Source of the DNA: Closterium sp. NIES-65
Lineage: Eukaryota > Streptophyta > Zygnematophyceae > Desmidiales > Closteriaceae
NCBI GenBank assembly: GCA_948144175.1
Contig: CANXME010002102.1
Coordinates: forward strand, 248,001 to 312,000
DNA: 64,000 nt
Direction: 5' to 3'
Both the position numbers and the translations under genes were made by a program. Below the pieces are notes generated by a model. It saw nothing but the letters and a program-made list of their open reading frames with translations. It was not told the DNA's origin and did not search any database. This document shows, in pieces, positions 206-52,748 of this stretch. Position 1 is the first letter of the stretch. Every line of letters begins with the position of its first letter.

Positions 206-357
206 TCTCCTCTGCCCCTCTCGGTCGCCTCCGCTCTAACTCGCGCGCATGCGACTGCAAGGGCGGGATAGTGGAGTGGCGGCTAGTGGAGGGCGGCAAG
301 TGGGTGGTGGGCGACAGCAAGTTCAGAGGGCACGAGGGCAGCGTGGAGGACATACAG
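206..357 (+). CDS. GRWD1: Exon of a GRWD1/RRB1-like WD40 protein (partial)
   Basis: The exon is read in the frame that ends SVEDIQ, with CAG at 355-357 followed by GT at 358. It encodes GRL near its start, then DCKGGIVEW, GGKWVVGD, a short FRGHEGSVEDIQ block and the splice donor. Proteins of the GRWD1 (animal) and Rrb1 (yeast) family have the order GRLL-GDC-(x)-I-(H/L)-W, a gap, then F-GH-x-SVED-(L/V)-Q-WSP, and this matches well. Family members are nucleolar WD40 propellers that chaperone ribosomal protein L3 and help 60S assembly (known for the family, not shown here). The frame stays open across the exon and both splice signals are plausible. A few extra residues lie between GRL and DCK. 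The next exon starts with W-S-P at 843 in the right phase. Another WD40 family is possible, but the SVED-Q-WSP junction argues for GRWD1. Confidence 0.68.
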
Positions 358-842
358 GTGTGTGTGGTGGGGGGTGCGGCATGACGCATGTGGGATGGGG
401 GATGGGGCATGGCGGATGATCAATTTGGGATGGGGAATGGGGCATGGGGGATGGTGAATTTGGGATGGGGAATGGGGCATTGGGGATGGGTCATGGGGGA
501 TGGTTGGGATGGGGAATGGGGCATTGGGGGTGGGGCATGGGGGATGGTGAATTTGGGATGGGGAATGGGGCATGGGGGATGGGGCATGGGGGAACGGGGC
601 ATGTGGAATGGGGCATGGGGGATGGTGAATTTGGGATGGGGGATGGGGCATGCGAGATGGGACCTGGGTCAAGGCAGATTTGTCTACATGCCAAGAGCAC
701 TAACCTGTCTCTATACCAAGAGGCACCGCTCTCCCTACTGTCTTTCCATCCTTACACCTCACATTGCAACCCACCTACCCACCCTCCACGTCCCCTCTCC
801 TCCATCCCCTCCCTGCTCCTCCCTCCACAACACCACCGCTAG
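358..842 (+). other. Intron of the GRWD1-like gene
   Basis: It runs from the GT donor after SVEDIQ to an AG at 841-842 that follows a long C/T-rich tract (about 720-840). It contains the G-rich minisatellite at 388-660. The remaining bases show no coding signal. The acceptor lies directly before TGG AGC CCA, which codes for the W-S-P expected by the family at this point. That supports the intron limits. Confidence 0.6.
388..660 (+). repeat. G-rich heptamer minisatellite in the intron
   Basis: The basic unit is 7 bases of the form GGGGNAT (GGGGAAT, GGGGCAT, GGGGGAT). Units are grouped into a higher-order repeat of about five heptamers ending in GGTGAATTT. Runs of four to five G recur every 7 bases on the sense strand of the host gene, so DNA or pre-mRNA G-quadruplexes are possible. 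Open frames across it are by-products of the repeat. Confidence 0.9.
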
Positions 843-857
843 TGGAGCCCAAAGTGT
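843..857 (+). pseudogene. GRWD1: Start of the next GRWD1-like exon, cut by a retrotransposon
   Basis: After the acceptor AG the sequence reads TGG AGC CCA AAG TGT (W-S-P-K-C). It is in phase with the previous exon, and WSP is the family's expected continuation. At 858 the sequence changes to the TGTCAAAC terminus of a copia LTR. The exon is therefore interrupted after five codons, and its remainder was not found in the window. The match is short, so the call rests on splice position, phase and the WSP motif together. Confidence 0.55.
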
Positions 858-982
858 TGTCAAACTCTTATGCTATAGTCTGTATAGGCTATAGTGGGGT
901 AGACAATATGGGGTACAACACTTCTAGGTTTTCCTACTTGCACCCACCTGCTTCCTAGTTCATTCATTCCTCATTCTTCACA
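858..982 (+). repeat. 5' LTR of A3
   Basis: It begins TGTCAAAC and ends CTTCACA, immediately before a TGGTAT primer site. The central part (GCTATAGT, GGCTATAGTGGGG, ATGGGGTACAACACTT) matches the reverse complement of the A2 LTRs at 21707 and 30141. At about 125 bp it is typical of the short LTRs of this family. Confidence 0.75.
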
Positions 983-2604
983 TGGTATAGAGCGGGAGAC
1001 GCCGCACCGGCAAGGACAAGGGGGGCAAGGGCGCTGGAGGGGCTAGCGGGGGCGGTGGAGGGGGTGGTGGAGGCGGTGGAGCGGGTGGGGGTGGTGGTGG
1101 GAGTGGTGGCGGGGGTGGCGGCGGCGGTGGCAGCAGTGGAGGCGGAGGAGGCGGCGGTTGCAGCGGAGGGAGCGGATGCGGCGGAGGTGGCGGAGGCGGC
1201 GGTGGCAGAGGCGGCGGGGGCGGTGGTAGCGGCTGCGGTGCAGCTGGTCGCGACTCTGCGCAGAGGAGTGGGTCCGGTGGTGGTCAGCGCCAGCAGCAGC
1301 AGCGCGGTCGTGAGACCTTGACCCCTCAGCAGCTTCGTGAGTGGTACGCTGCGCGTCAGCGGGGTGGGGGTACTAGTCCCTGCACTTACATCCTCCGTAC
1401 CGGCGACCGGGCTGGTGAGCAGTGCGAGGGCCCGCACTCCACCCAGCGCTGCTTCGGCCGCTTGACGGACGCGTGGCGTCACCAGTTCCCTGAGGCGTCA
1501 GAGATCCCTCGCTGGGGAGATCTGTCTAGGGCGGGGGTTGCCATCTTTGATCTTGACTATGATGCTATCCTTGCTGCCATGTATGATGTGACTACTAGTG
1601 TTGAGGGTGACTGTTACCTGTGTGTACCGCCTGACCCGGGCATTGAGGCTACTGCTCTAGGTGCTGGTGAGGCTGCTGCTCTAGGTGCTAGTGCGTCTGC
1701 TGCCCCAGGTGCTAGTGCGTCTGCAGCCCCAGGTGCTGGTGAGTCTGCTCTCTTAGGTACTACGTCGGCTCAGACCTTACACACCTTCACCCTTCACTCG
1801 GGTGCTTCCCGCTCCTTCTTTAGAGACCGCACCACGCTTACGCCGCTTAGTCGGCCGGTTGCGGTCTCCCTGGCGGACCCCTCTGGGGTTCCTGTCCTTT
1901 CTAGCTTCTCCACTGTCTTACCGTGCCCGGCAGCCCCCTCTGGCACCCTGTCAGGTCTCTACCTCCCCTCGTTCTCTACGAACTTGGTGAGTGGAGCGGA
2001 CCTACTGGATAGGGGGGTTGACCAGTTCACTCCTGCGAGTCAGCGGGTGACCCACTGCACGTGTGCTCGCACAGGCCGACACTTGGCCACGTTCACCCGT
2101 CGGCCAGGGTCGAGCCTGTACACCCTTACTACTGAGTCTCCTCCGGCTGCTGAGTCTGGCCAGGTAGTTGCGTCGAGTCAGGTGTTTGCTGCAGCGTCCA
2201 GGTCTGGTCCTGAGTCTGCTCCCTGCTCGTCTCGTCTCCTGTCCCACCAGACTCTCTTTTGGCACCACCGTCTTGGTCACCCCTCCGTGCCTCGTCTCCG
2301 AGGCATGGCCTCCCGTGTCCTTGTCTCTGGTCTCCCCCGGTCTCTCCCTCCCCTACCTCCGGGGCCTGGCCCTACTTGCGTCCCCTACGTCTAGGGGCGA
2401 CAGCGCGCCGCCCCTCACTCCTCCAAGTTTCCTCCGACAGAGGCTCCGCTGCAGACTCTCCACATGGACGTGTGGGGCCCCGCCCGCGTCCGTGGACAGG
2501 GGCACGAGCGTTACTTCCTGTTGGTGGTTGACGACTACTCGCGTTACACCACAGTCTTCCCCTTCCGCAGCAAGGGTGACGTCACTGAGGTGTTGAAGGG
2601 CAAG
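858..2604 (+). mobile_element. Ty1/copia family A, copy A3 (fragment, plus strand)
   Basis: The 5' LTR at 858-982 is followed directly by a primer site resembling the tRNA-iMet complement (TGGTAT-AGAGC). Recognisable parts in order are a Gly/Ala-rich gag stretch (about 1030-1310), the LREWY module (about 1320-1350), a Cys/His motif (about 1380-1460), a protease-like block (about 1790-1870), a GAG-pre-integrase block (WHHRLGHP, about 2265-2300) and the start of integrase (DVWGPA, VVDDYSRY, about 2460-2600). It is broken, with a few breaks, and its 3' half is absent where it meets family B sequence. It belongs to the same group as A1, A2 and A4. It entered the host exon that starts at 843. Confidence 0.8.
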
Positions 2605-3776
2605 CTTGGCGCAACAAATCTTGTCGGCGGAGGTAGCAGTGGCTCGAAGTCGACCAAGGAGGTCCATAAGAAGTCGTCAACCAAGGGCAACGGTCGAGGA
2701 GGAGGAAGTCGACGTCGGGAGTGTTGGCTGTGCGGCGACCCCGACCACCTCTCCTTCGAGTGCCCCGAACGCAGTGACTCCGACGACGACGACGCCAAGG
2801 GAGGCCGCAGAAGGTCTGGCAGTCGTCGTCCTCGTCGTTGAGGAAACAAGCCGCGCAAGGAGAAGCAGTCGACCACGTTGACCTCAGCGAAGGACACCAA
2901 CTCCTCTGCTAGCGGCAAGGCGCGGGACGACAAGACGGCGTCGTGCTCGCTTGTCGGCGTCGTGGAGCCGACCCTCTCGCTGGCACCGGAGGTCGGAGAG
3001 GATTACGAGGCGGTGGCGGCAGCTGTGCAGGCGAACCCGGCGGTGGTCCTGCTCGACAGCGGCTGCTCCCACCACGTGATGGGGACGAAGGAAGTCTTCG
3101 TCGACCTGCAGCCGAGCGGCTCCATCAAGCACGTGAGCGGCTTCAATGGGGCGCTGCAGGACGTCCAGGGCCGTGGCACCGTCGCCCTGCAAGGAGAGGC
3201 CAGAAAGCAGGTGCTCATCCCCGACGTGCTGTGCGTCCCGGGTGTGCGGTCCAACCTGCTCTCGTCCAGCCAGCTGAAGGAGCACGGCGTGAAGCTACAG
3301 GAGGATGGCGACGGAATGCTGCTCGTCTCGGCGGCGGGAGAAGTGCTCGGTCGGGCGACGTACTACGGGCATGTCCTCTGCACCGACCTGCGTCCCTGCT
3401 CAACGAGGTCCACGTCGCCTACGCCGAAGGTTGTGGCCTTGCGGGCGATCGTCTCGAAGACGAAGTCGACGCCGGACATGATGCATGCGTGGCTTGCACA
3501 CGTCGGCATGGACACCATACGAAGCTCGGTGAAGAACGAGGTCGCCACTAGGCTGGACCTCAAGTTGACCACGGGGGCCGACTCACTGTGTGTCTCATGC
3601 GTCGGCGGGAAGCTGGCCGGCACACCTTCCCCGACCAAGGCTCCGACGCGGACGACGTGCTAGCCGTCGTACACATCAACTTGTGCGGGCCGTTCCGCGT
3701 GGCTGCCAAGGACGGTAGCTTGTACTTCTTACTGCTGAAGGACCGCAAGACCCGCTTCATGTGGGTGAGGCCGGTT
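2605..3776 (+). mobile_element. Ty1/copia family B, copy B3 (internal fragment, plus strand)
   Basis: This is an internal piece without LTRs. It shows a zinc knuckle (CWLCGDPDHLSFEC, about 2727-2770), a protease block around DSGCSHHVMG (about 3050-3090), a GAG-pre-integrase block (HAWLAHVGM, then CVSC, about 3480-3610) and the first part of integrase (HINLCGPF, about 3670-3776). It is closely related to B1 (47.6-48.4 kb). It has A-family sequence on both sides (A3 on the left, plus strand; A4 on the right, minus strand), so its edges are rearrangement junctions and not element ends. Broken. Confidence 0.8.
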
Positions 3777-6290
3777 GCCACTGACGATGTTTGCTCCAGG
3801 AGGGGGAACCTCGTCAACGTAAGTGCCTGTGGACTTCTAGGATGCCATCTCTTCGTCCATGGCTGTCTGCCACTGAGAGGAGTACTCACCCGCGATCGCC
3901 TCAGCGTAAGAGCGCGGGGTCGGGATGTCTGGTGCATCCGGGTCTCCCTCAGGTGCAAGCAGCATGGACACGAGATGAGGCGCTGCGGCTGCAAGACACT
4001 CAAGGTCCTCCTGCCTGTCCTCAAGGACGTCTGTGCCAAGAGCACACTCTCCCCCGAAGGACGGAGGACAGACAGACTCAGACTCAGCAACAAGACTAGC
4101 GGCGTAGTCTAGACAACAGGTAGCAGCAAATTCAACAAGCTCAGTGACTAAGGCAGACGCAGCAGCAGACTCAAACGACGGATCAGTGACAACTGTGGCT
4201 AGTAGATGCGTGACAGTAGGGTGAGCAGCACGGGTGCGGTCAGACTCAGGCTCAGGAATGGTAGGCAGAGAAGACGCAGGAGGGGACGGCAGAGGAACAC
4301 GCTGTGGAGGAGAGGAAGGACGACAAACTACGAGGTGGGTGCCGGTGACAGCGGGCTGACGCGAATGAGGAACATGACGACCAGAACGACCAGAACGACC
4401 AGAACGACCAGAACGGACAGGCGAGACAGGACGCGATGCAGGCGCACGACGCTCAGTAAGACCCCCAGAACCGGCAGCTCCAGTCCCAGGGTCTCCAGCC
4501 TCAGTGTCTCCAGTAGCAACACCCCTAGACCTAGGGTCTCCAGCAGTAGCACCCTCAAGCTCAGCACCTCCAGCCCCAGCAGCTCCAGTACCTCCACTAC
4601 GAGCACCTCCAGGACCAGGACCACTCCCAGCTCCAGTGACGCCAGCACAAGTACTTCCAGCGGCAGAGCCCCAAGCTCCAGAAGCGCGACCCTGACGGCG
4701 ACCGTACCAGTCGCGCAGCTGCTGTGAGGTGAGAGGCACACGCGGACGAAGGCGGCTACTCCAAGGAGACCGCGCAACAGCAGACTCAGAACCCTCAGCG
4801 CGAGCACCCGCAGCAGCTCCAGAACCTCCAGCGCCAGCACCCGCAGCAGCTCCAGAACCTCCAGCGCCAGCACCCTCAGCAGCTCCAAAACCTCCAGCTC
4901 TAGCACCATCAGCAGCTCCAGAACCTCCAGCAGAAACAACTCTAGTAGCAGAGTCACCAGCTCCAGCGGCTCCCGCAGCAGGGCCCCTAGCTCCAACAGC
5001 GGAAAGGCCGGAAGCTTGAACGTCTGGCGGATGCCGTGCTCCGTACAGAAGGCTGCCAAGAGGTCGGAGGAAAACTCCCCACCTGTGTCAGAGTGCAGAC
5101 GCAGGATGGGAAGCTCCGTCCCGAACCGCTCGCGGAGCTGGAGACGAGTAGCGCGGATCCAAGGGATCAAAACATCAGGGACCTCACCCTTTGGTGCGCA
5201 AGGGGAAGACCGTGATGTAACGCGTGTAGTCGTCGACGACCAGCAAGAAGTACCACTCGTGGCCCTGTCCACGGACGCGGGCTGGGCCCCACACGTCCAG
5301 GTGGAGAGTCTGCAAGGGAGTCTCTGTGGGAGGGAACGAGGAGGAGTGAGGAGCGGCGCGCTGCCGCCCCTTGACACAGGGAAGACAGGGAGGAGCAGGC
5401 GAGGGTGGGAGGGGAGGGAGAACCTTGGGAAGACCAGAGACAAGGACACGACGGTGCATGCTGCGAAGGCGCTACACCGAGGGGTGACCACGGCGGTGGT
5501 GCCAAAGGAGGGTCTGGTGCGACAAGGCGCGACACGAGCAGGGGGCAGAAAGCTGACCTGACAAAGACGCAGACGCAGCTACCTGAGGGGACTCACTGGT
5601 CAGTGTGTACAGGCCCGACCCCGGCTGTCGAGTGGAGGTAGCGAGGTGACGACCCGTCTGAGCACACGTGCAATGTGTCACACGCTCGTAGGCAGGGGTG
5701 AACTGGTCAACACCCGCGTCCTGGAGCGCAGAACCCGCCACCAAGTTCGTAGAGAACGAGGGGGGGTAAAGACCCGATAGTGTGCCGGACGGGACAGCGG
5801 GCGCAGTACCAGAGAGAGCAGACTCACCAGCACCTGGAGCAGCAGCCTCACCAGCATCTAGAGCAAGAGACGCACGAGCACTTAGAGCAGCAGCCTCACC
5901 AGCACCTAGAGCAGCAGGCTCTATACCTGGGTCAGGCGGTACGCACAGGTAACAGGCACGGTCAGCACTAGTAGGCAATGCATAGATGGCAGTTAGAATA
6001 GCATCATAGTCAAGAGCAAAGTTATCTACCCCCTGTCCAAGCAGCTCCAGCCAGGTGGGGAGCTCAGCCTCGTCGCCAAACTCGGTACACCAAGCGTTGC
6101 TCAGACGGGTGAAGCAGCGGGACTGGGTGTGACTAAGCGTCCCGCAAGCCTGACTAGTCCGATCATCTGTACGAATGATGTATGGGCAGCGAACGGTACT
6201 GAGAGACCCTCTACTCTGAGCGTACCACTCACGAAGCTGCTGGGGCGTGAGAGACTCGCGCGGACGTCGCTGGAGCTGCATGTGGCCACC
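3777..6290 (-). pseudogene. A4 gag-pol remnant
   Basis: From right to left it shows an LREWY module and Cys/His motif (about 6250-6100), a block rich in Gly/Ala/Glu (about 5940-5800), a stretch shared with the A1 protease-to-pre-integrase interval (about 5770-5560), pre-integrase (WHHR-GHP, about 5510-5470), integrase (DVWGPARV, about 5300; VVDDYTRY, about 5240; HSD-GGEF, about 5090), a Gly/Ala/Leu-rich linker (about 5000-4500) with another LREWY-like copy near 4720, an (SGR)n run (4381-4416) and the start of reverse transcriptase (TPRSYAEA, about 3900). Broken in several places. It is a relic of a polyprotein like that of A1. Confidence 0.75.
4381..4416 (-). repeat. 9-bp tandem repeat, in-frame (SGR)n
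   Basis: There are four copies of CCAGAACGA on the plus strand, the last with one substitution. On the A4 coding strand they give Ser-Gly-Arg repeats in the linker between integrase and reverse transcriptase. The A1 and A2 linkers do not carry this expansion, so it arose in this copy or its subfamily. Confidence 0.85.
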
Positions 6291-6599: not shown

Positions 6600-7091
6600 A
6601 TGCGCGAACAAGGCAGGTGCTCACCAGTGGTGAGAAGGGCCGGCACTCGGCGGGCGGCGGCAGGGTAGGCGCACGACGGCGGCAATGGCGGGGCCGCAGC
6701 AGCAGCTGCAGAGTAGGGCCGCAGCAGCTGCAGGGTGGGGCTGCGTCAGGGGCACGTCGGGGCCGCGTCAGCTGCAGGGCTGGCAGGGCCGCGTCGGCGT
6801 CCGGGCGGGGCAGCGTCGGCGGCAGGGCGCGGCCGCGTCGGCTGCAGGGCTCGGCCGCGTTAGAGGCAGGGCGCGGCCGCGTCAAAGGCTGGGCGCGGCC
6901 GCGTTAGAGGTAGGGCGGGGCCGCGTGATGCAGGGCGCATCCACGTCAGAGGTAGGGCGTGGCCGCGTCGAAGGCAGGGCGCGGCTGCGACGAAGGCAGG
7001 GCGCGGCCGCGTCAGAGGCGCGGCCGTGTCAGAGGCAGCGCGCGGCCGCGTTGGGTGCAAGGCGTGGCCGCGTCAAAGGCAGGGTGCGGCC
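6600..7091. repeat. GC-rich minisatellite (A4 leader, first piece)
   Basis: The unit is about 20-24 bases around GGGCGCGGCCGCGTCAGAGG, each unit containing a NotI-like GCGGCCGC core. It is clearest from about 6840 to 7090. The same repeat resumes at 13737 after C1 and at 21370 after A1, so the array was one block before those insertions. It carries no gene. Arginine- or proline-rich frames across it are spurious. Confidence 0.85.
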
Positions 7092-8175
7092 TGTTGGTGT
7101 AAGGGCCTAATGAACTCAAACTATTAAGACTTTATCAAACTTAAAACCTCTCCTCGGGGTCACCTCTTGGGTGCCTGGTACAAGACCAGCCCCTATCCTT
7201 GGGTCCGAGTTTGTAGAGAGAGGGATCAAGAGGGACTTAGTCAAAACAGCAAGAGTACCTTGAACGTCGCGCAGCGTATCGTGCAGACCGTCGATCGGAT
7301 TAAGCTGAGAATTTCCTATATCGAAGCTCGCTCTAAGAGCTTTAAAATGAACCAAGTTGCCTCGCGAAAAGTTCTGCCATTACGAAGTTATGGCTCGGAC
7401 AGCGTTTGCCTAGCATTGAAGTGCTAGCGTACTAGCGTTGACTCGGGTAGCATTCCGCCGTCGCACTGCGTAGAAACGAAATTCCAGCAAGGAAGGAATT
7501 CGCTTGAATCAATTTCACTATATTCAGGTACAAACAAAGAAGGAATAAATAGTTCTAGCTAGCAAGGACCTTGGGAATCAACCAGGGAACAACCAGGGAT
7601 GATCCCAAATAATTCCAAGCAACAGAACCAACCTGGCTGGACAAAACAGCAGGTGGTAGGTTGGTAAACAACCTCTGATTCTGTTTTTCCAACCTGGAAA
7701 AACAACAACTAGGTTCAGGTCCTAGAAACAGAACCTGTTTTGTCTTTGCCCAACCAGCCAAATGCTGGTTCCGCTGGTTTCCCCTGGCCCTGTAGCATGC
7801 AGATACAGACAAACAACATCCAACCTTCACCTAAATTGTACCCCTATAGTGCCTGCCCTGCTACACTATAGTCAACCAAACAAAACAGTACAATTTCGAG
7901 TTGGATAGAACTGAATCTGCGCAATCAAGTAAGTTGAACTGCAAAGCTTCCATCTTGGGTTCCTTTGCGAGCTCGTCCTTTCTGCTTGTACTGTTCATAG
8001 CACGTACAATGTTGTGCCGAAGTGCACAATGCGCGAGTACCTGCAAATGCTTCAAGCGAAAATTGCGAAAGCAAACAAACACACGAATATTCCATTCACA
8101 CCCAAATGCATTCGCACACGCATATTCGTACAAACAGACGGCAGGATGTCGTGCAATGTGAATTTGCACCCAACA
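7092..8175 (-). repeat. 3' LTR of C1
   Basis: About 1.08 kb, with TG...CA termini inside the inverted ends TGTTGG/CCAACA. It matches the 5' LTR at 12647 over its whole length, apart from scattered substitutions and an indel of roughly a dozen bases near 7165. Five other copies of this LTR occur in the window (12647, 27987, 43739, 55116, 60588). Confidence 0.93.
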
Positions 8176-8358
8176 CATTCCCCCTCAGCCTGCCGGCTGC
8201 ATCCCCATCATTCCATACTAGTTCATGCTCATTCCACTCATGCACACACAACGCCAATGAGGCTCATCCGCAAGCCTCTTGGTGAGGAAGTCTGCTGGCT
8301 GCTGGTGAGTCTTGATGTAGATCGGATTCACCGCCCCCCTCTTCACTTCCTTACGCAG

Positions 8359-11300
8359 CTAGTGCCACTTGATACGCATGTGCTTATTGAGCCCATGAAG
8401 CACAACGTTCCTGGCCATCCCAAGAGCCCCCTTGCTATCACAGAACAGCGGCGTAGCAACCTTCCGCTCCTGGCCAATCTCCTCTAACAACCTCCTCAGC
8501 CAAATCGCCTCCTTCACCCCATGGAACATCGCCATGTACTCTGATTTCACAGAAGAGAGTGTTGTCTCCGTCTGCTTCTTTGACCTCCAACTAACAGGTC
8601 CTCCCCCAACTACACAGATGTATCCTCCGACAGATGAGGAATCCTCCTTCTCAGAGGCCCACGTAGCATCGGTAAAGCAAGTGAGAAAGAGCTTGCCTTC
8701 TCCAAGCCTCTCCCCCTTCTCTTTCAGCACCTCAACCCCTTTCTGCTTCACCTGTGCTAATGCGGAGTATTGAACTCCAATGCTTGGTTGAGAGTTCAGA
8801 TACTTCACCACACGCTCTGCTGCATCCACCTGCTCCTCTGATGGATTATGCACCACCCTAGCCAGCTGCCCAACCGAGAAAGAGATGTCGGGCCTCGTGT
8901 GAACTGCTGCATACAAGAGGCTGCCCACCAAGGACTGAAATTGCTGCTGCTCCTCGCCTTCAACCCCTTCATCCTCTGCAGCTTTCACAAGCTTGAATTC
9001 TGCTGACAGGGGAGTTGCAACTTTGCGCTCATTCTCAATCCCGTACTTCTCCCGAAGCTCCTTGATGAACTTCTCCTGGTGCAGCTTCAACCACCTGTGA
9101 TCCAGATCCCTCTCCATGTGCATCCCGAGGTAGTGCTTCACCTCCCCAAAGTTCTTGCACTTGAAGTTCTCCATCAGCTGCTGCTGCACATTCAGGGTCT
9201 TCTTCATGCAGCTCTTAAAGAGAAGAATGTTGTCCACATAGACCAGAAACAGCACCAGCTTCTCCCCCTCCCCCTTGAGAAAGAGGCTCTTATCACAGCT
9301 GATGGTCGTGAATCCCATCTCCTCTAAAACAGCTGCCAACTTCTGGTACCAGCAGCGTGGCGCCTGCCAAGCCGTAGATGAACTTTTTAAGCTTGCACAC
9401 CCTGCCCGTACCATCCTCATACCCAGGCAGCTGAGTCATGTACACATCCTTCTGCATAAACCCCTTAGCCACCAGCCTACTCTTGTAGATGGTGACCTGT
9501 CCCTTGTCACCATCGGTCTTGATCCTTAGCACCCACTTGCACTGTACGGCTTTCTTACCGTCAGGCTGCACCACCAGCTCCCATGTCCCATTCTCTAGCA
9601 GGCTCTAGTACTCAGCATCCCTTGAAACCAGCCACTTCTCCCTATCTGGTCCAGCTAATGCCTCCTCCATGCTAGCTGGTTCCTCTGGTGCAGGGGCAAG
9701 AAAACAGTAGGCAGGTTCATCCTCCTCATCCAGATCATAGCCATGCGGTAGAATCAGCAATGCCTCCTCGGTCCCAAGCTGCTGCTCTGCTACATCAGCT
9801 CCTGCAGTCAGCTTCTTAGTAGCCATACGGGTACGTCCTGGCCTGGAGACGGGTGTCTCCCATCCCTTCATAACGACACCCTTCGGCTTCTTAGTTTTCC
9901 CCTGCTGCTGCTCTCCCCCCTCGGATCTAGCAGCTCCACTAGTGCTAGTGTCCACATCATTTTCTCCACTAGAAGGTGCCTCCTGTACCTTCTTTCCATC
10001 ACCACCCTCTGCAGCTCCCTCCTCTCCCTCCTCCCACACAGTAGGAGTCAGGTCCAGCTGCATGGTGATCTTCTCCATCTGCTGGGACACCCTGGCCTCC
10101 GGCTGTTTCTCCCAGCTCTCATACATCATGCCCTCAACAATCTTCACATCCCTGCTGTAAAAAAACACACCTTTGGATGGTTCCCACAGCAGCCATCCCT
10201 TGCTCTCAGCAGCCAGCCCCAAATGCACACACCAGATTGCACTCGCACCCAACTTACAGCGGTAGGTCTTGGGGACGTGGGCGACTGCCATGCAACCGAA
10301 CACCCTCAGCATGTCCACCGGCGGCTTCCTCCAAAGCCACCTCTCCCACGGCACCCACGAGTCATCCCCAACCTTTGTGAGTACCCTGTTCCTAGCGACG
10401 GTAGCGTGCCGAACAGCATGGGCCACATCAAGTTGCCCAGCCCAGATTCTATGAGCAGCGCCCTAGCTGTCTCCAGAATTGTTCGGTTCGCCCGTTCTGC
10501 TACACCGTTAGACTGTGGGGTGTAAGCCTTGGTCAGCTCCCTCTGGATGCCCTGCTTCTTGAGCCAGGCCGTCATCTCAGCTCCAAGGAACTCACCACCC
10601 CGATCTGTCCTAATCTGCTTCACCACACACTCCGCTTGCTTCTCCACGAATGGCAGCCAATCTTTGCGTATCGTAGAGGCGGCATGGTCCTTTTGCTTCA
10701 GCGGATATGCCCACATAAGCCTGCTCCAATCATCCACTATGGTCAGAAAGTACCGCTCCCCCTTATGTCCCTGAACCGGCAGCGGCCCTACCAAGTCCAT
10801 GTGGACCAGCTCCAACGACTTCTTGCTCCTGCAAGCCACACTATGGAAGGGGAAACGGGTAAACTTTGAGAGCAAACAGATTTCACAATTCTCATCAAGT
10901 GGCTGTCCGTTCCGCTTCAGACCCTTAACGGCTCCATCTTTCTCCAACTGCTTCAACAAGGGCATTGCCACATGCCCCAAGCGTCGGTGTGCCGTTGCCC
11001 AATCCGTCTCCCCAGATCTGGCCGACACATTCACACCAACCCCTCCAACGGCATTGCACTCCCCCTGGGATGCAGACCCCTCTCCAGCCTGCCCCCCACC
11101 ATGCCACGCCAAAGCCGGCAGCTGCCATATTGATCTGTACACGTCCGTGCTCTCGTGCAGATCCCAAAGCACCCGATTGCCCAGTTGCCCCTTGTAAGTG
11201 CGTGCCCCATCCGTGCTAGTGCTCACCCCAGCCTTGCCAAGCTTACGGAGGGAAATGAGGTTGGCCTTGAGTTTAGGAACGAGAAGAACGTCGTGCGGCA

Positions 11301-12600: not shown

Positions 12601-12631
12601 AGCTACCTATATCGAGGATCACTATAACGCA

Positions 12632-12643
12632 GCTCTGATACCA
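12632..12643 (-). promoter_or_regulatory. Primer binding site of C1 (tRNA-iMet type)
   Basis: The minus strand reads TGGTATCAGAGC, three bases inside the 5' LTR. This is the classical complement of the 3' end of plant initiator tRNA-Met used by copia elements for minus-strand priming. The same 12-mer is found next to the 5' LTRs of C3, D and E. Confidence 0.93.
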
Positions 12644-12646
12644 GCT

Positions 12647-13736: not shown

Positions 13737-13997
13737 CGGTCGCGTTGAAGGTAGGGCGCGGCCGCGACAAAGGCAGGGCGCGGCCGCGTCAGAGGTAGGG
13801 CGGGGCCTTGTCGGCTGCAGGGTGTGGCCGCGTCGAAGGCAGGGCGCGGGCGCGTCGAAGGCAGGGTGCCGCCTTGTCGAAGGCAGGGCGCGGCCGCGTT
13901 AGAGGCCAGGCGCGGCCGTGTCAGAGGCGAGGCGGGGCCGCGTCGGCTGCAGGGCGCGGCCGTATCGAAGGCAGGGCGGGGTCGCGTCAAAGGCAGG
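13737..13997. repeat. GC-rich minisatellite (A4 leader, second piece)
   Basis: This continues the array at 6600-7091: units around GGCAGGGCGCGGCCGCGTC, with variants GGGGCCTTGTCGGCTGC. It lies between C1 and A1 and ends in GCAGG, which is the target duplication of A1. Confidence 0.88.
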
Positions 13998-14131
13998 TGT
14001 CAGAATGAGAAACGAGAATGAGGAGTGACTAGCAGGAACAACAGTACAAATATGTCAAACCCTAATCTGGTGTACCCCTTATGGTGTGACCCACTACAGC
14101 CTAGAACCACACAAACATATAATGTTTGACA
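13998..14131 (-). repeat. 3' LTR of A1
   Basis: 134 bp from TGTCAGAATG to TGTTTGACA, with termini TGTCA/TGACA. Identical to the 5' LTR, preceded by GCAGG (13993-13997). Very short for a copia LTR. Confidence 0.96.
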
Positions 14132-14362
14132 CACCCCCATAGGCAAAGTGGGGGAGACCTAGGGGTCACAAGACCAGTCAAGGCAAAACAAGGCAAACAA
14201 GCTCAGGGTGGATCTCGAGGATTCCACACAAATTCCGAGCACAAGCAAGCGGTCACAAGACCAGTTCACATGCAGTTTTATAATAGAGCAAGAGGTACAA
14301 TGATCACAACCTAACAAGGCAAACATGCAGGTATATATATAATGATCACAGTACAGGTAAAG

Positions 14363-38364: not shown

Positions 38365-38366
38365 AG

Positions 38367-42994: not shown

Positions 42995-43262
42995 TGTTAT
43001 GTAATGCTATCATTTGCATTCATATCTGTCTGCCTCCCATCACATGCTCGTGCGTTGCATGTATGGTGTGAACGTGTGCAAGAATTTGTGTTTGATGTGG
43101 TTTGGTTTTTCTGAGTGTTTGTGAATGTTATTTTGGTTTGAGCAGATATCTGAAGTGACTCCTCTGATCAAGAGCTTTCCGACGAACCAAGTATCGCTTC
43201 AATCGGAGCACGAACAAGAAAGTTACGAACGTTAGAAGTTCGTAAACTTTTGATTTTTTGGT
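42995..43262 (+). repeat. Partial 3' LTR of D
   Basis: It begins TGTTATGTAATGC directly after the purine-rich tract and follows the 5' LTR for about 268 bases. Then the sequence becomes hAT-1 (CAAGGTGTGAAGATGCGCAA, matched in hAT-2). Confidence 0.85.
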
Positions 43263-43738
43263 TACAAGGTGTGAAGATGCGCAACACATGTCACTAGATT
43301 TACTCACACATCTTGTGTTATGCCCCCTGCGTCCTACAGGGAGGCTCTGGATGTGAAGGATGCTACGACGCCGAATTTGGACCTGGACATGGTGGACAAG
43401 GTGGTGCGCACCGTTGCGGCAGAGCTCGGGAAGTCGTACGTCTAGAGTCAACGCTTGAAGTACCTGCTGGGAGTGATATACAACACGAACCTTGAAATCC
43501 AGGGAATCCACACAGTTCGGTGGCTGTTACAAGGGAATGTGGTGCATCGGCTGTGCAAGATCCTAGGCGTGTGCATCGTTCTGCTCTGGGAGAACAGCAC
43601 AAGGCGTACGAGATTGTTACGTGCTACAAGTTCCAGTTTTGCCTGTCTTTCTCGCCGACATCCTCGCCGACATGAACGACCTCTACCGTTGCTTCCAGAA
43701 GCGTGATGAAAGTATATTTTACTTTCGCGAGTAGGCCT
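43263..43738 (+). pseudogene. hAT-1 middle coding block
   Basis: After a pyrimidine-bearing stretch and CTACAG at 43335-43340, the sequence encodes REALDVKDATTPNLDLDM, TVAAELGKS, then GIHTVRWL, HRLCKILGVCIVLLWE and, in another frame, DMNDLYRCFQKR. hAT-2 has the same order (EALDVNDATT, GIHTVRWLSR, RLCKVLGACIVLLWE, DMNNLNRCFQKR). RWLS-type motifs are typical of the hAT catalytic region and DUF4371-like domains. One stop (near 43442) and at least one frame change make it non-functional. It is cut at 43739 by a family C solo LTR. Confidence 0.6.
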
Positions 43739-44831
43739 TGTTGGGTGCAAATTCACATTGCACGACATCCTGCCGTCTGTTTGTACGAGTATGCGTGTGC
43801 GAATGCGTTTGGGTGTGAATGGTATGTTCGTGTGTTTGTTTGCTTTCACAATTTTCGCTTGAAGAATTTGCAGGTACTCGCACAATGTGCGCTTCGGCAC
43901 AACATTGTACGCGCTATGAACAGTGCAAGCAGAAAGGACGAGCTCGCAAAGGAACCCAAGATGGAAGCTTTGCGGTTCGGTTGAATTGATTGCGCAGATT
44001 CAGTTCTATCCAACTTGTAGTTGTACTGTTTTGTTTGGTTGACTATAGTGTAGCAGGACAGGCACTATATAGGTACAATTTAGGTGAAGGTTGGATGTTG
44101 TTTGTCTGTATCTGCTTGCTACAGGGCCAGGGGAAACCAGCGGAACCAGCATTTGGCTGGATGGGCAAAGACAAAACAGGTTCTGTTTTTAGGACCTGAA
44201 CCTGGTTGTTGTTTTCCCAGGTTGGAAAAACAGAACCAGAGGTTGTTTACCAACCTACCACCTGCTGTTTTGTCCAGCCAGGTTGGTTCTGTTGCTTGGA
44301 GTTATTTGGGATCATCCCTGGTTGTTCCCAGGTTGATTCCCAAGGTCCTTGCTAGCTAGAGCTATTTATTCCTTCTCTGTTTGTACCTGAATATAGTCAA
44401 TTTGATTCAAGCGAATTCCTCCCTTCCTGGAATTTCGTTTCTACGCGGTGCGATGGCGGAATGCTACCCGAGTCAACGCTAGTACGCTAGCACTCCAACA
44501 CTAGGCAAACGCTGTCCGAGCCATAACTTCGTAATGGCAGAACTTTTCGCGAGGCAACTTGGTTCAATTTAAAGCTCTTGGAGCGAGTTTCGATATAGGA
44601 TATTCTCAGCTTAATCCGATCAACGGTCTGCACGATACGCTGCGCGACGTTCAAGGTACTCTTTCTGTTTTGACTAAGTCCCTCTTGATCCCTCTCTCTA
44701 CAAACTCGGACCCGAGGATAGGGGATGGTCTTGTACCAGGCACCCAAGGACCCTTGGAGGTGACCCCGAGGAGAGGTTTTAAGTTTGATAAAGTCTTAAT
44801 ATCTTGAGTTTATTAGGCCCTTACACTAACA
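43739..44831 (+). repeat. Solo LTR of family C inside hAT-1
   Basis: A 1093-bp LTR, here in the sense orientation (TGTTGGGTGCAAATTC to CCCTTACACTAACA), without internal sequence. Target duplication GGCCT is perfect on both sides (43734-43738 and 44832-44836). It resembles the solo LTR at 27987 and has the same length. A CTATATAGG string near 44065 could be a TATA box, but the other copies read CTATAGAGG or CTATAGGGG there. Confidence 0.95.
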
Positions 44832-45281
44832 GGCCTCTGTTTGTTTATGGTTTGTTTTGCTGTTAGAAACTGTGTATCATGTGCTCAATCGCGGTGTTGT
44901 GACAGCTGGATGTGATAGAGATTTCTAAGACCATTGAGTCCTCCACGGCGGATCTGACAGAGCGGTACTTGACGAACGACAAGCCGCTCGGCGGCAAGAG
45001 CACGAGCTGGCTGGTCGGCATTCTGAAGCTGCACGGGCAAGGCGGAGGCAAGAAGGTCCGGGTGCAAGGCGTGGACGGTGAAGCACGCCCCATCAACCAC
45101 CTCTACACCATGCACGAGAGGAAGCTCCCGGAGCACACGTGCGGAAACATTTACGCCGAACGCGTGAAACTGTTCCGCATCTCGCCCGCGATTGCGTTGA
45201 CAACCTCAACGAGCGTGCTGATGACCTGGGGAAGCTGGGGATCGGAAGTGCCGTGAGTGGCTTCTGAGATGCAGCAAGCTT
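44832..45281 (+). pseudogene. hAT-1 third coding block
   Basis: After GTGTTGTGACAG the exon begins CTGGATGTG and encodes LDVIEISKTIESST, LTERYLTNDKPLGGKS, SWLVGILKLHGQGGGKKV and, beyond, RIFARDCVDNLNERADDLGKLG-like sequence. hAT-2 holds the equivalents (LTERYLTNDKPFGGES, SWLVTLLKLHGQGGGKIV, FAHDCVDNLNKRLDDLGKL). The reading frame shifts near the end. The block stops in AAGCTT, where the B1 LTR begins. Confidence 0.6.
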
Positions 45282-46518
45282 TATCAACGGGAGTTGTCGG
45301 TTGGCCCCGTCCTCGCTCGGGCGGAGTCGACTTCGTGGTCGGGTGTGAGGGAAGTAGCCGACTTGCAGCAGTGGGCGAGCTGGTTGACGAGGAAGTCGAC
45401 CTGCACGGGAACCACTGCACGGGCACCGAATTCAGGGAGGTCGACCTGAGAAGTCGACCTGCGGAGGGCGTCGACTTCTTGACGCGAACTTGGGGCAGCC
45501 GACTTGGGTGGTCGGCTGACAGGCCTGCTGGTCAACATGGTGGTTGGTCGACCAGGCGTGATGTCAACCTAGTGGTCGACCTGACCTAGTGGTCGGCGGA
45601 GGAGGGACCGACGTCGACCACGACTCAAGACGCCGAGCAGCTGGGCGTCGAGTGGCAGGGCCTCAACTTGGTGACGCCGACTCTGGGTAGCCGACTTGGG
45701 TGGTTGGCGACAACTGCGCTGGTCAACATGGAGCTGGTCGACCAGGAGTGCTGGTCGACGTGGAGCTGGTCGACCAGGAGTGACGTCGACCTGGAGTTGG
45801 TCGACTAGGGGCGTGGTCGACCTGGTGAGGTCGACTTGGGGTGGTCGTCGACTTGGGAGATCGACGGGCACATACAGGAGCAGCTGGTTGACATGGTTGC
45901 CCGGTCGACCAGGTTACCTGGGTGACGAGGTCCTGCGGAGATTGCGATGGTCGCCCAGGCGAAGTTGGCGAGTCCGACCTCGGTGGTGGTATCCCGAGGT
46001 CGACGTGGCTGATCAGATGCAGTCGTCAGCGCCAGGTATACTTGGTGTATGCACTGTGCAGGTGACAAGGCTCAGCACGCCAATTATCTGCGAGCACGTG
46101 TGAAGTTGGTGTGATGCTGTACTGCAGGAGCTACGCTGGCATGCCGTCGACCTGAAGCGTTGGCACGCCGTTGACTTTGCACTGCAGGAGGGCGGTCGAC
46201 CAAGTCGTGCTGGAACGCAGTCGACCATGCTGTGTTGGCAGTCGACCGACCTGAATGCTAGCTTTGATGTAGTCTTGCCATGCCAACTTCTTTGGACCAT
46301 TGTTGTCAACTTTTTCTAGTGAAACTCTTGCCAACTTACCCCGTGAACTAGCAAGTAGTGTGTGCACTAGGAAAACGACTAAGGACGAACGAACGCAGAG
46401 ATCACACGAGCATCCATGCCTAGCCCGTAGTCTAGCTCCCGTTGTAGTAGTTATTTCCGCACGGTGCGGTGAGCGTGGACGGCACACGACTAACCCTTCC
46501 GTCAAGTCGACGTTGACA
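45282..46518 (+). repeat. 5' LTR of B1
   Basis: About 1.24 kb, from TATCAACGGG (elsewhere TGTCAACGGG) to GTCGACGTTGACA. The ends TGTCAAC/GTTGACA are inverted complements. The LTR contains more than 20 copies of the palindrome GTCGAC, often as GGTCGACC or AGTCGACC. Confidence 0.8.
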
Positions 46519-46567
46519 TCATTTACCTAATTCGTGGTTGTAGGCCGGCTGCTGTGCGGCAGTCACT

Positions 46568-49500
46568 ATGGTAGGAGCCGTAGGTGACGCAGGGGTGGTG
46601 GACACCCTGGAGGCACGTCTGGAGAACGAGAGGAGAAGGCACAAGGCCAACGAATATGGCGACCTACCGTGGGCGGTCGTCGAGGCTGGACTCCGCACCA
46701 TGTGGGCAATGGAGCACCCTTCTCGACCTACCTCTCCTCGACCAATGACCAACGAAGGTGGCGACGACGTAGGCGTCAACGCCGGTGGAGGTTAAGTCGG
46801 CAGTAGTGCGGGAGGCACGTCGAGGTAACGTGGTGTGATTCACGCAGATGAAGTCGATGGCGTTCATGCGCAAGGGATGCAATCGTCGGCGGCTGCAAGC
46901 CCCTCGCATGGCGACGTCGAAGGTCGACGAAGCGGATTGTCGCCGATGTCAGCGACCCAGGTGACGGCGGGCGGGATTGTACCGAGCTACGGCTACTTCA
47001 AGGCTACGCTGGACAGGATCTTGGTCATCCCGCCGCTCGTTGGTCGACCAGACATACTCACCTGGAAGGAAGCCATCGAGCCCAGCTGGAGATGGCCGGG
47101 CTGATTGGCTTCGCCCGAGTGACCGTGGCGATGCCGGGGGAGCACCACCCCGACATGCGCACGGAGTTTCGTGCCATGCAGTTGTTGACCTTCACGGTCA
47201 TCTCGCGGTGCTGCTCCCCGAGCGTGCAGATTGCCCTGAAGTGGTGCAGGGAGTACCTTGACGCCGGCCACCGGGCGTGGCACTTCATCGAGTTGACCTA
47301 CCAAGTCACAGACGACTTGTTCATCGCCCAGCTAGAGGGACAGCTGACGCACCTGCATATGGGCGACAAAGAGACGGCGACCGACTACTACAACCGACCC
47401 TGGCGAATTCTCGCCACCATCAGGATGGCCGGCGCGCAGTACTTGACGGCGTCGTATGTCACCCACGTCATGTAGGGACTCTCGAGCAGCTACAACCTCT
47501 GGAAGCGCCTGTTAATGGCGCCGAGCATGAGGACGACGCTCAACGAAGACAACTTGACCTCGTACATCCCGCAGGACGAGGCGATGCAGGAGGCTGAGCG
47601 GTCCCAAGAGCTCTTGGCGCAGGCGAACTTCGTCGTCCCGGCGAAGCAATGAGGTTGACTCGGGCAGCGTGGACAGTCTGGCGGTGGTGGTAGCAGTGGC
47701 TGGAAACTGGCCAAGGAAGTCGACAAGAAGAAGTCGGTCAAGAACAGCAGTCGAGGAGGAAGAGGTCGACGTCGGGAGTACTGGCTGTGCGGTGACCCCA
47801 ACCACCTCTCCTTCGAGTGCCGCAACCGTAGTGACTGCGATGACGACGACGCCAAGGGAGGCCGTGGGAGGTCTGGCAATCGTCGTCCTCGTCGAGGAGA
47901 AAACAAGCCACGCAAGGAGAAGCAGCCGACGACGTCGACATCAGCGAAGGACGCGGACTCCTCTGCTAGCGGCAAGGCACGGGACGACAAGACAGCGTTG
48001 TGCTCACTGGTCGACGTCGTGGAGCCGACCTTTCGCTGGCGCCGGAGGCCGGAGAGGACTTCGAGGCGGTGGCGGCAGCTGTGGAAGCGAACCCGGCGGT
48101 GGTCCTACCACTTGATGGGAACAAGGGAAGTCTTCATCGACCTGTAGCCGAGCGGCTCCATCAAGCATGTGCGCGGCTTCAATGGGGCACTGCAGGATGT
48201 CCAGGGCCGCGGCACGGTCACTCGGCAAGGGGAGGCCGGAAAACAGGTGCTCATCCGCGACGTGTTGTAAGTCGCGGGTGTGCGGGCAAACCTACTGTCG
48301 TCCGGCCAGCTAAAGGAGCACGACGCGAAGCTGCAGGAGGACGGCGACGGGGTGCTTCTCGTCTCGGCAGCGGGAGAAGTGCTCGGTCGGGCGACGTACT
48401 ACGGGCATGTCCTCAGCACCAACCTCGGTCAGTGGGCTTACTGCTGAGGACGACGAGGACGTCCGTCCTCCTTCCCCTCCCTCTCCTCCCCCTCCCCTTC
48501 AGGCCGACCAGCGCGGGCTGACCTCGGTGTCGGCCTCCGGCGATGAGGGGAGTAGTGGGACGTCGCCTTCGGCGCCGACCAATGACATCGCCAGTGGCCG
48601 ACGTGACGAAAGGCACGTCGACGTGGTAGTGAAGCTGACGATGACGAGGGAGGGGCAAGTCGAGGAGAAGCAGCCGACAGGGGAGCAGGCAGCACTGAAG
48701 CCGACCACAGAGCAGTCGGCAACCACGCCGACCACAGGGGACAGGTCGGCCAGGAAGTCGACCGAGATGTAGCAGGACGACGAGGGCAGTGAAGACGACG
48801 ACGAAGGTGGGGACGCCGAGGAGTCCACCAAGAGTGACGTGGTGGAGGTTTGGCCTGAACCCCGGAAGTGAGGACGACTTCGGAGGCCACCCGACTTCTT
48901 CGTCCCCGCTGCCTTCACCACGGTGTACGAGGTGGATGACGACGACCTGGCGTATGACGACGTCGAGGAGGATGAGGAGTTTCTGGAGCTCGACCCTGAC
49001 ATACTGGCCAACCCCGAACACCGCTGGGACATCTCGACCATGACGGTGAAGGAGGCGTTGGTGAGCTATAAGGGCCCGGCGGTGAAGGCCGCCATGGAGG
49101 AGGAGATCCGCAGCCTCATCAACATGGGCACTTGGGAGCTGGTCGAACGCCCGCAGGGGGTCAACATTATGAAGAACCGGTGGGTGTTGACGACGAAGTA
49201 CCACGTCAACGACACCGTCGAGCGCGAGAAGGCGAGACTGGTCGTGAAGGGCTTCACGCAGGTGTACGGCACCGACTACGACGAGGCGTTCGCGCCGGTG
49301 GGCAGCTACGTCACACTGAGGATCTTCCTCAGCATCGTCGCCGTCCTTAACCTCAACCTGATGCAGCTCGACATGAAGAACGCCTTCCTGCAGAGCAAGC
49401 TCGACCGGGTGCTCTATATGACTCAGCTGGACTACTTCAACGATGGAACCGGCTGGGTCTTCAAGCTGCTGAAGAGCCTGTACGGCCTTAAGCAGTCGCC

Positions 49501-50440
49501 ACTGTTGTGGTACTTGGCGCTCAACGACGTGCTGGTCGGCGCCGGGTGGAAGAAGAGCCAGGTCGACGAGGCTCTGTACTTCAAGGTCGGCAACGACGGA
49601 GTGGCTTGCTGGGTGCTGATCTACGTCGACGACCTGCTCGTCGCCAGCAGCAGCGCTGCGATGTTGAAGGAGCTGCTGGAGTCCGCCTTCGAGCTTTGTG
49701 AGATCTCGCCGGTGCAGAAGTACCTTGGGCTGGAGATCGTCCGCGACAGGTCGGCGGGGAAGCTGTGGCTGCACCATCAGGGCTACGCCGACAAGCTGCG
49801 TATGCGCTTTATCGACGACGAGCATACCGGGCGCACTCCGAAGACGCCGGTCTCGGTCGACGCCTATGCCGAGCTCACCTTCGACGACGATGAGGCACAG
49901 GAGCGACAGGAGGATGAGTACCGGCAGAAGGTCGGCTCGCTGCAGTTCGCAGCGACGACGACGAGGCCGGACATTGCCTTCGCCTGCAGCAAGCTGGGGA
50001 GCGACCTCACGTTGAGGAGCGACCAGCACTGGCGCGAGGTCGACCGCTGCCTCGCTTACCTCGCCAACACGCTTGACACCGCCTTGGAGTTTGGCGGTGG
50101 ACCTGAGTCACTGGAGCTGGTCGGCTACGTGGACGCTGACGACGCCGGTGACAAGCACAACAGGACGAGCACGGGCGGCTACGTGTTCGTCTACAGAGGG
50201 GCCGCAGTCTCCTGGTCGAGCCAGCGCATCAAGTGCGCGACGTTGTCATCGACCGAGTCGGAGTACGTGGCGGCCACGGACGCCGGCAAGGAGGGACGTC
50301 GTCTTCGCTTCCTCCTTGCAGTTCCAGCAGTTGGATGCTAGGAAGTCGACTGTCCTCTGGGTGGATAACAAGTTGGCCATCACAATCACTGAGGGCATGG
50401 GGTTGCTAGGAAACCTCAAGCATATGGAGCGGCGATAGGC
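46568..50440 (+). pseudogene. B1 gag-pol remnant
   Basis: Family B gag, knuckle, protease-like, linker, reverse transcriptase and RNase H sequence, in copia order. The longest clear stretch is the reverse transcriptase/RNase H part (about 48930-50340), which retains motifs such as NAFLQSKL, YGLKQSPLLW, YVDDLLVAS and STESEYVA. Codon use is strongly GC-rich, with many GTCGAC (Val-Asp) dipeptides. Broken. Confidence 0.85.
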
Positions 50441-50748
50441 CTGGCTGCAGCACATGGTGAGGCGCGGGAAGTTCTCGGTGAGGTACATCCCGACCACCGA
50501 GCAGCCGGCCGGCTTCCTGACAAAGGCGCTGCACTATCCGGCCTTCAACCGGTGCTCCGTTGCCATCGGCCAGGTGTGCTTGGCCGACGTGGGCGACGAA
50601 GTTGACGAAGTGCAGCAGTAGGTGCCATGCCCTCTTGCATGGCTGGTGCGGTGGACGATGTGCTTTGTGTTTGGTGCACGTCGACGAGCTAGTATCTGTG
50701 GAGTACTGCCGTGTGGGCTGGGGGCCCAAGCGTGAACGCGGCAAGGGA

Positions 50749-51921
50749 GTGTCAACAGGAGTTGTGTATTGGCCCCGTCCACGCTGGGGCGGAGCCGACT
50801 TCGTGGTCGGGTGTGAGGGAGCAGCCGGCCTGCAGCAGTAGGCGAGCTGGTTGACGAGGAGGTTGACCTGCACGGGGACCACTGCACGGGCGCTGACTAC
50901 AGGGTGGCGCCGACTTCAAGGGAGGTCGACCTCGGAAGTCGACCTGCGGAGGACGTCAACTTGGTGACGTCAACTTGGGGCAGCCGACTTAGGTGGTCGG
51001 CTGACGGACTGCTGGTCCACCTCGTGGTTGGTCGACCAAGCCTGCTGGTCGACCTTCTGGCGGTCGATCTGACCCGGTGGTCGATGAAGGAGGGGCCGAC
51101 GTCGACTTTGACTCAGGATGCCGAGCAGTTGGGCGTCGAGTAGCCGGGCGTCAAGTTCGTGACGCCGACTTTGAGTAGCCGACTTGGGAGGTCGGCTGAC
51201 AACTGCACTGGTCGACGAGGAGCTGGTGGACCAGAAGTGATGTCGACTTGGAGCTGGTCGACCAGGGGCGTGGTCGACCTGGTGAGGTCGGCTGGAGGTG
51301 GCCGTCGACTTGGGAGGTCGACGGGCACGTACGGGAGCAGCTGGTCGACGTGGTTGCCCGGTCGACCAGGTTACATGGGTGACGAGGTTCTGCGGAGTAG
51401 TGCGACGGTCGCCCAGGCGAAGTTGGCGAGTCCGACCTCGGTGGTGGTATCCCGAGGTCGACGTGGCAGATCAGGTGGAGTCGTCAGCACAAGGATGACC
51501 TGGTGTGTGTGCGTTGTGCAGGTGACGAGGCTTAGCCCGCCAATCATCTGCGAGCACATGCGAAGTAGGTGCGCAGCTGTTCTGCGTGAGCAGCGCTGGC
51601 ACGCCGTCAACCTGCAACGTTGGCACGCCGTCGACTTTGCACTGCTAGAGCGCAGTCGACCTAGTTATGCTGGAACGCGGTCGACCTTGCTGCGATGGCA
51701 GTCAGCCAACCTGAATGCTAGCTCTGATGTAGTATTGCCATGCCAACTTCATTGTACTATTGTTGTCAACTTTCTCTAGTGAAACTCTTGCCAATTCTCC
51801 CTGTGGACTAGCCTGCTGTGTGTGCACTAGGAAAACGACTAAGGACCAACGAACGCACAGATCACACGAGCACACGTGCCTAGCCCGTAGTCTAGCTCCT
51901 GTTGTAGTAGTTATCTCCGCA
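50749..51921 (+). repeat. 3' LTR of B1
   Basis: It starts TGTCAACAGGAG and follows the 5' LTR to TTATCTCCGCA. It then passes directly into host sequence, about 57 bases before the expected GTTGACA end. It has the same GTCGAC-rich composition as the 5' LTR. Confidence 0.8.
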
Positions 51922-52324
51922 CCATCCACGTGAGCACTATTTGGTCATGCTGTGGTTTGTGGTAGCAAGCACTATGCACTCACTCACCTCCTGGCCATCG
52001 CTGATCCTTCTCCACCTCTCTGCTTTTCCGCATCTTCAGGTAGGCATTGCTAGCATCTGTAGTTCTTGGCTCAACTATCTTTGCTGCCGCGCCTTGGCGT
52101 CGTTTCTCGCTTTCACTTTGCCTTTGCAATCTGCATCACTTTCTCTTCCCAAGAAGTTCAACAACTGCTACTTGTTGGGAACAGGTGTGTTGTAGAGGCA
52201 CCATTTCTTCAAAACTGCTACGTGCACCTGCTGCTGCAACCAGTTTCCTCCTCTGTCTCCTTCAATGAACGCCTTTTGCTCCTCTTCTTCCCCCTCTCCC
52301 ACCCCCCTCTGCCACCCAATGCAG
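51922..52324 (+). other. Probable intron sequence of the GRWD1-like gene
   Basis: A non-repetitive, C/T-rich stretch between B1 and the first copy of the last exon. It ends in a polypyrimidine tract and GCAG at 52321-52324. A CTTCAG|GTAGGC string at 52033-52044 could be a splice donor. The preceding 40 bases (LLHLSAFPHLQ in one frame) are faintly like the LLFVHQ that precedes the last exon in the family, but I could not establish an exon. No other coding signal is seen. Confidence 0.45.
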
Positions 52325-52378
52325 GGTCAGACAAACATCAAGGAGCTACACTGGCATCCGCACATCCCGGGATTCTGA
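52325..52378 (+). pseudogene. GRWD1: Last exon of the GRWD1-like gene, copy 1 of 3
   Basis: After a C/T-rich tract and AG at 52323-52324, the frame reads GQTNIKELHWHPHIPG. This matches the family's signature GQxDLKELHWHPQIPG, just before its C-terminal strand. The frame then meets TGA at 52376. The following bases (ATT TCC ACT ACT GCT, ISTTA in the next frame) show that copy 1 lost one base. It ends too early to supply the family's C-terminus. Confidence 0.75.
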
Positions 52379-52495
52379 TTTCCACTACTGCTGCTTTAAC
52401 TACATTACTTCCTGGTCTTCTCTATTCAACACTTTGTTCCGCTCACCTCCTTCCCCTTTGTCGCCCTCCCACCCCCCTCTGCCACCAACTGCAAG

Positions 52496-52566
52496 GTCAG
52501 ACGGACATAAAGGAGCTACACTATCCGTACATCCCAGGCATGCTGATATCCACTGTTGCTGCTTGA
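52496..52566 (+). pseudogene. GRWD1: Last exon of the GRWD1-like gene, copy 2 of 3
   Basis: Preceded by the same CCCACCCCCCTCTGCCACC tract as copy 1, and by AAG at 52493-52495. It reads QTDIKELHYPYIPGMLISTVAA and stops at 52564-52566. Compared with copies 1 and 3 the WHPH segment is changed to YPY (three bases shorter), and the C-terminus after STVAA is missing. The exon would also enter in a different phase (GT instead of GGT). Confidence 0.72.
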
Positions 52567-52625
52567 TATATCTCTATTCAACACCTCTCTCCGCTCCCCT
52601 CCTTTCCCTCCCATACGTATAACAG

Positions 52626-52748
52626 GATCAGGCGGGCATAAAGGAGCTACACTGGCATCCGCACATTCTGGGCATGCTCATTTTCACTGCTGCCAATGGC
52701 ATCAACGCCTTCATGCCAGGGCTGACGTTCCATATTAGGGCCCCCTGA
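52626..52748 (+). CDS. GRWD1: Last exon of the GRWD1-like gene, copy 3 of 3 (open)
   Basis: After a pyrimidine-rich tract and ACAG, the frame reads DQAGIKELHWHPHILGML, then IFTAANGINAFMPG, then LTFHIRAP and TGA at 52746-52748. Family members end in LKELHWHPQIPG-(M/L)-(I/L)-(I/V)-ST-(A)-x-DGFN-(I/V)-(L/F)-MP plus a short tail, so this copy carries the full expected C-terminus: the last WD40 strand. It is the only one of the three that does so, and is the best candidate for the original exon. Because the second readable exon (843) is interrupted and the central exons were not found, a functional gene in this window is doubtful. Confidence 0.75.
   Translation, partial: DQAGIKELHWHPHILGMLIFTAANGINAFMPGLTFHIRAP

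Follow-up and report, generated by a model that had tools for sequence, protein, structure and literature searches.

The two ends of what looks like a single WD40 gene lie about 51 kb apart in the window analysed here (the whole 64,000-base stretch of DNA, with 0 ambiguous letters), and the question is whether they belong together and, if so, what became of the middle of the gene. The window looks eukaryotic, as it contains spliced-exon pieces together with Copia and hAT-like elements. The features discussed below are listed in Table 1. We propose that the locus is probably a dead gene copy of the GRWD1/RRB1 type, the middle of which was lost through recombination between two retroelements of one Copia family (the B1 family) in a plant-like eukaryote.

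Table 1. Positions, strands and supporting evidence of the features in the window
Feature	Position	Strand	Evidence
Internal exon, GRWD1/RRB1-like WD40 gene (...ACDCKGGIVEWRLVEGGKWVVGDSKFRGHEGSVEDIQ)	206-357	+	tblastn 32.0 bits at 253-357; BLASTP E 4e-10; translation; GT donor at 358
First 15 bases of next exon (WSPKC), LTR-cut	843-857	+	AG acceptor; phase 0 with preceding exon
Copia-type element fragment: 5' LTR (~858-984), primer-binding-like TGGTATAGAGC, then mid-gag of family A	858-2596	+	self-comparison; gag_pre-integrs domain
Mosaic of element pieces: B1-type interior 2622-3389; C/A-type pieces within 3776-6245	2622-6245		self-comparison; Pol_BBD in 2842-3663
Copia D	7092-13736	-	LTRs 95.65% alike; flanks CGGCC/CGGTC (4/5); gag/integrase domains
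Copia C	13998-21365	-	134-bp LTRs identical; target duplication GCAGG; single open frame 2050 aa
Copia A	21707-30266	-	short LTRs ~96% alike; target duplication CACGT; domains in 25161-26636
Solo LTR, family D, inside element A	27987-29079	-	target duplication GCCCT
hAT-like element (hAT1), 36879 = ORF start, cut at 45281 by B1	36879-45281	+	zinc-finger domain; homology to minus strand ~53.7-54.7 kb
Copia B1, apparent recombinant of two insertions; LTR-L 45282-46462, LTR-R 50750-51921	45282-51921	+	RVT_2 in 48872-50341
Remainder of last host intron (inferred)	51922-52324	+	no element homology in self-comparison; exon copies next
Terminal exon copy 1 (GQTNIKELHWHPHIPGF, stop)	52325-52378	+	one base short, early stop
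Terminal exon copy 2 (GQTDIKELHYPYIPGMLISTVAA, stop)	52495-52566	+	three bases short; acceptor AA, not AG
Terminal exon copy 3	52626-52748	+	sole copy with full-length end; tblastn 45.4 bits; BLASTP E 9e-11
Copia D2	55116-61679	-	flanks AAAGC/CACTC unmatched; LTRs 91.46% alike; RVT_2 in 57179-57967
B1-family piece	61717-63987	-	interior 63987-62987, LTR-P 62986-61793, 5' leader 61791-61717

We searched the window by tblastn with a putative 221-aa stretch of a plant-type GRWD1, using 40 shuffled queries as a control. The four best matches were all located at the window ends, at 52572-52718 (45.4 bits, E 2.6e-8), 52298-52372 (34.3 bits), 253-357 (32.0 bits) and 52468-52554 (32.0 bits), and the top score among the shuffled queries was 27.7 bits. 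The query passes the Pfam WD40 model and, among the best 60 of 537 matches to solved structures, its top matches were RBBP4, as expected of a WD40 protein. In BLASTP comparisons with the putative plant GRWD1-like stretch, 19/38 identities were found for the left exon extended by WSPK (E 4e-10) and 17/30 for the last exon (E 9e-11). For four peptides, all 2000 shuffles per peptide stayed below the observed score, and in each case the score against the GRWD1-like stretch was at least twice that against RBBP4 (93 versus 29 for the C-terminal exon). The same comparison with the plant-type sequence located in the left piece an SVED(I/L)QWSP blade preceded by a DC..I..W strand, which we take to be a GRWD1/RRB1 hallmark, and the last exon contains KELHWH..IPGM.I.TA..G.N..MP, presumably the C-terminal hallmark of the family. 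The exon peptides alone had no significant match in the Protein Data Bank (best E 0.7 and 0.12) or in Pfam (best E 0.15 and 0.22), and no GRWD1 relatives were found in viral contigs, in which 14 stretches fit a search pattern and 0/14 were confirmed.

The exon boundaries were consistent with these matches. The left exon ends at GACATACAG/GTGTGT, the following exon starts at 843 in phase 0 (...CTAG/TGGAGCCCAAAGTGT, encoding WSPKC), and the last exon reads DQAGIKELHWHPHILGMLIFTAANGINAFMPGLTFHIRAP up to its stop codon, with an AACAG acceptor before it (read by eye; the stretch to FMP is also included in the tblastn match). As the left fragment is an internal exon, the 5' end of the gene is outside the window. 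The sequence-only reading had described an exon ending in SVEDIQ, an in-phase W-S-P start and a last exon, all on the plus strand and in the order of GRWD1/RRB1, and both tblastn and the splice phases agree with this description; the translated search with a GRWD1-type protein that it had suggested gave, within the window, top matches at both ends and above the shuffle maximum. Because the order, strand and phase of the pieces agree and none of the shuffles matched their scores, we assign them to GRWD1/RRB1, and, judged by order, strand and splice phase, they appear to derive from one gene copy.

The terminal exon is present three times in tandem, starting at 52325, 52495 and 52626 (spacing of 170 and 131 bases), and each copy is preceded by a pyrimidine-rich stretch. 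The first two copies are truncated or damaged extras, a feature that is new relative to the sequence-only reading.

We then considered the middle WD40 exons, for which a translated search of the window gave a best match of 20.4 bits, compared with a median of ~21.9 bits and a maximum of 27.3 bits for 200 shuffles. As a detection control, a simulated middle was split into exons that were then inserted into the window (threshold of 27.5 bits). At ~50% identity, at least one exon was detected in 30/30 trials and 97/126 exons were found; at ~40% identity, the corresponding values were 30/30 and 69/123, and with 29/126 and 54/123 single exons missed, one lone short exon could escape. The earlier statement that the central WD40 exons were not seen is thus supported both by a best match below the shuffle median and by the simulations. 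Since the propeller is incomplete (a complete WD40 propeller is absent from the window), the locus represents a gene fragment and not a working GRWD1/RRB1 member. A living split gene with an intron of ~51 kb was rejected, because the middle exons were not found there and an LTR interrupts one exon. The view that everything between the two ends is mobile-element sequence agrees with the element domains or self-similarity that cover much of the interval; stretches such as ~34.1-35.1 kb have no assignment.

At the left break, the second exon is interrupted after its fifth codon by a Copia-type LTR, which starts at 858 and is followed by a motif, TGGTATAGAGC, that is presumably primer-binding-like. 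Positions 858-996 were 79% identical to the LTR and leader of element A, and positions 991-2596 were 91.8% identical to its interior. The coding sequence of the gene is therefore broken at 858 irrespective of later events. In the adjacent mosaic of element pieces (2622-6245), no LTR was recognised by self-comparison.

The right break is formed by B1, in which an RVT_2 domain lies between two LTRs. As the sequence-only reading had claimed, there is no target duplication around B1: the left flank (AGCTT) and the right flank (CCATC) agree at 1/5 positions. We compared its LTRs with a third LTR of the family near 62 kb (LTR-P), and obtained identities of 86.6% for LTR-L/LTR-R, 92.3% for LTR-L/LTR-P and 85.3% for LTR-R/LTR-P. 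The changes unique to one LTR numbered 32 in L, 46 in P and 111 in R, and the difference between 32 and 111 was significant (p 2e-11, assuming equal rates and independent sites). The sister LTRs expected of a single insertion were accordingly not seen in B1, the closest pair being L and P rather than L and R. Because B1 has no target duplication and its own LTRs are not the closest pair, it is likely a recombinant. It also seems to be without an integrase region, judging from the ORF list (the domain scan covered two B1 ORFs other than 47659-48147).

The left neighbour of B1 is the hAT-like element, and its match to a second copy is close up to the first bases of B1 and gappy beyond; on the right, B1 is presumably bordered by host intron. 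The hAT-like element is itself interrupted by Copia F (~37506-43266) and by a solo LTR (43739-44831, target duplication GGCCT), and its label comes from the sequence-only reading together with a zinc-finger match (zf-C17orf113 at 36879-37406), the one domain match obtained in looking for a hAT transposase domain. Among the three ORFs scanned in the second copy (54161-54613, 54825-55130 and 53549-53866), 0/3 had a Pfam family. Near the end of this copy, a 51-base tandem repeat is found at 53005-53120, the minus strand of which reads as an acidic stretch.

The remaining elements of the window provide a reference for B1. Domains of Copia type (RVT_2, integrase core, gag_pre-integrs and Pol_BBD) were found in the elements of the window, and ORFs without a Pfam family numbered 2/10 in one set (54161-54613 and 46852-47475) and 3/8 in another (54825-55130, 53549-53866 and 56240-57097). 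The 5-bp target duplications were exact in A, C and both solo LTRs and agreed at 4/5 positions in D; none was found in D2, and Copia F, the ends of which are only approximate, showed no clear one. The two family-D solo LTRs (27987-29079 and 43739-44831) share 97.25% identity, and each is flanked by an exact target duplication of its own. Copia C is probably a recent insertion, given its identical LTRs, exact GCAGG duplication and uninterrupted 2050-aa frame. Among the six LTRs of the D family, each LTR of D has the other as its closest relative (95.65%), whereas those of D2 are 91.46% identical to each other and 91.24-92.22% identical to the other four. Interior-type sequence lies on either side of the right LTR of D2, which is followed by ~40 bases of D-type interior, and self-comparison placed B1 interior on both sides of LTR-P. 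The D2 and B1-family pieces at 55116-63987 thus contain LTRs with two-sided interior, which are marks of further recombination. A G+C-rich repeat stretch (6664-7091, 13737-13997 and 21366-21427) is seemingly split by the insertions of D and C.

We hypothesize the following history. A Copia element would first have landed in the coding sequence after the fifth codon of an exon, where the LTR start is seen at 858, and further elements may then have accumulated in and beside the gene. On the left, one B1-family Copia would have inserted into the hAT-like element; on the right, another in the same orientation would have entered the last intron of the gene. Homologous recombination between the two B1 copies could have produced the single chimeric B1 without a target duplication, and the stretch lost between them would have comprised what remained of the hAT-like element together with the middle WD40 exons. 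Several results favour such a recombination: the flanks of B1 differ, while A, C and both solo LTRs keep exact duplications and D keeps 4/5; the D family offers a parallel, since D, with its nearly kept duplication, has sister LTRs and D2, without a duplication, has not; interior-type sequence flanks each of two neighbouring LTRs on its left and right; and the hAT-like match changes from close to gappy at the first bases of B1. The earlier proposal that a deletion removed the middle of the gene hence remains the best reading, now with the LTR relationships of B1 besides the missing duplication, but the gene was probably not intact until that deletion, as the Copia LTR at 858 would already have broken it.

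An identical signature, a missing target duplication plus LTRs that stem from separate insertions, is predicted if at the true locus the remaining exons lie between two B1 copies, which the assembly merged into one chimeric B1. We regard such an assembly collapse as unlikely, since LTRs diverged by ~13% should be separable by long reads, if such reads were used, and the window has 0 ambiguous bases; moreover, a separate LTR would still interrupt the exon at 858.

Somewhat more doubtful is a history in which the exons were lost through illegitimate recombination at the left mosaic; B1 would then be a simple insertion of some age, whose duplication has decayed and one of whose LTRs has changed fast. 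At ~2.6-6.2 kb, fragments from three element families are crowded together with no LTR among them, which suggests other deletions, and the exons may have gone there and not at B1; the three B1-family LTRs cannot be rooted, and the same counts could arise if LTR-R changed faster or if gene conversion took place between L and P. However, the unique changes (32 versus 111) are very unequal, and the flanks of B1 agree at only 1/5 positions, yet D keeps 4/5 at an LTR identity of 95.65%. This history also fails to account for the differing neighbours of B1, hAT-like sequence to its left and host intron to its right. Finally, the triplicated terminal exon demonstrates local duplication, but it is very improbable that the two ends are different damaged tandem paralogues of one gene family joined by rearrangement, because order, strand and splice phase suit one gene and, among the matches listed, no second left-exon match exceeded the 27.7-bit shuffle maximum.

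Under the preferred reading, recombination between two B1-family elements, a single locus clearly documents the breakage of a housekeeping gene by nested retroelements, after which recombination between them can remove exons. The reading would be useful to annotators of this genome, as gene finders may report two spurious partial genes at this locus. Recombination between related retroelements is a well-known route of DNA loss in plant-like genomes, and the locus is a good example of this known process and no new kind of system.

Yeast Rrb1 is reported to be a chaperone of Rpl3 that binds this ribosomal protein (L3) and has its essential function in the propeller (PMC4491177). In view of this essential role, another intact copy is expected somewhere; we find it hardly credible that this was the only gene copy of the organism, that is, that a plant-like eukaryote is losing or has lost through retroelement insertion and recombination a chaperone essential in yeast. 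Compared with GRWD1/RRB1, the WD40 chaperone of ribosomal protein L3, the locus is similar in two exon-sized pieces (19/38 and 17/30 identities to the putative plant member), whereas the middle of the propeller was not found here, one exon is LTR-cut and the last exon is triplicated. The window elements resemble Ty1/Copia in their RVT_2, integrase core, gag_pre-integrs and Pol_BBD domains, and B1 differs in apparently being without the integrase region, according to the ORF list. For unequal homologous recombination in plants, the introduction of PMC7251063 describes three kinds of product: solo LTRs, elements that look full-length but have no duplication, and LTRs flanked by interior sequence to the left and right. 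The window matches this removal of LTR elements in plants, with two solo LTRs that have duplications, B1, and LTRs of the last kind, and differs from it in that the stretch removed here apparently included exons of a host gene and in that the PBS/PPT of the window LTRs are putative.
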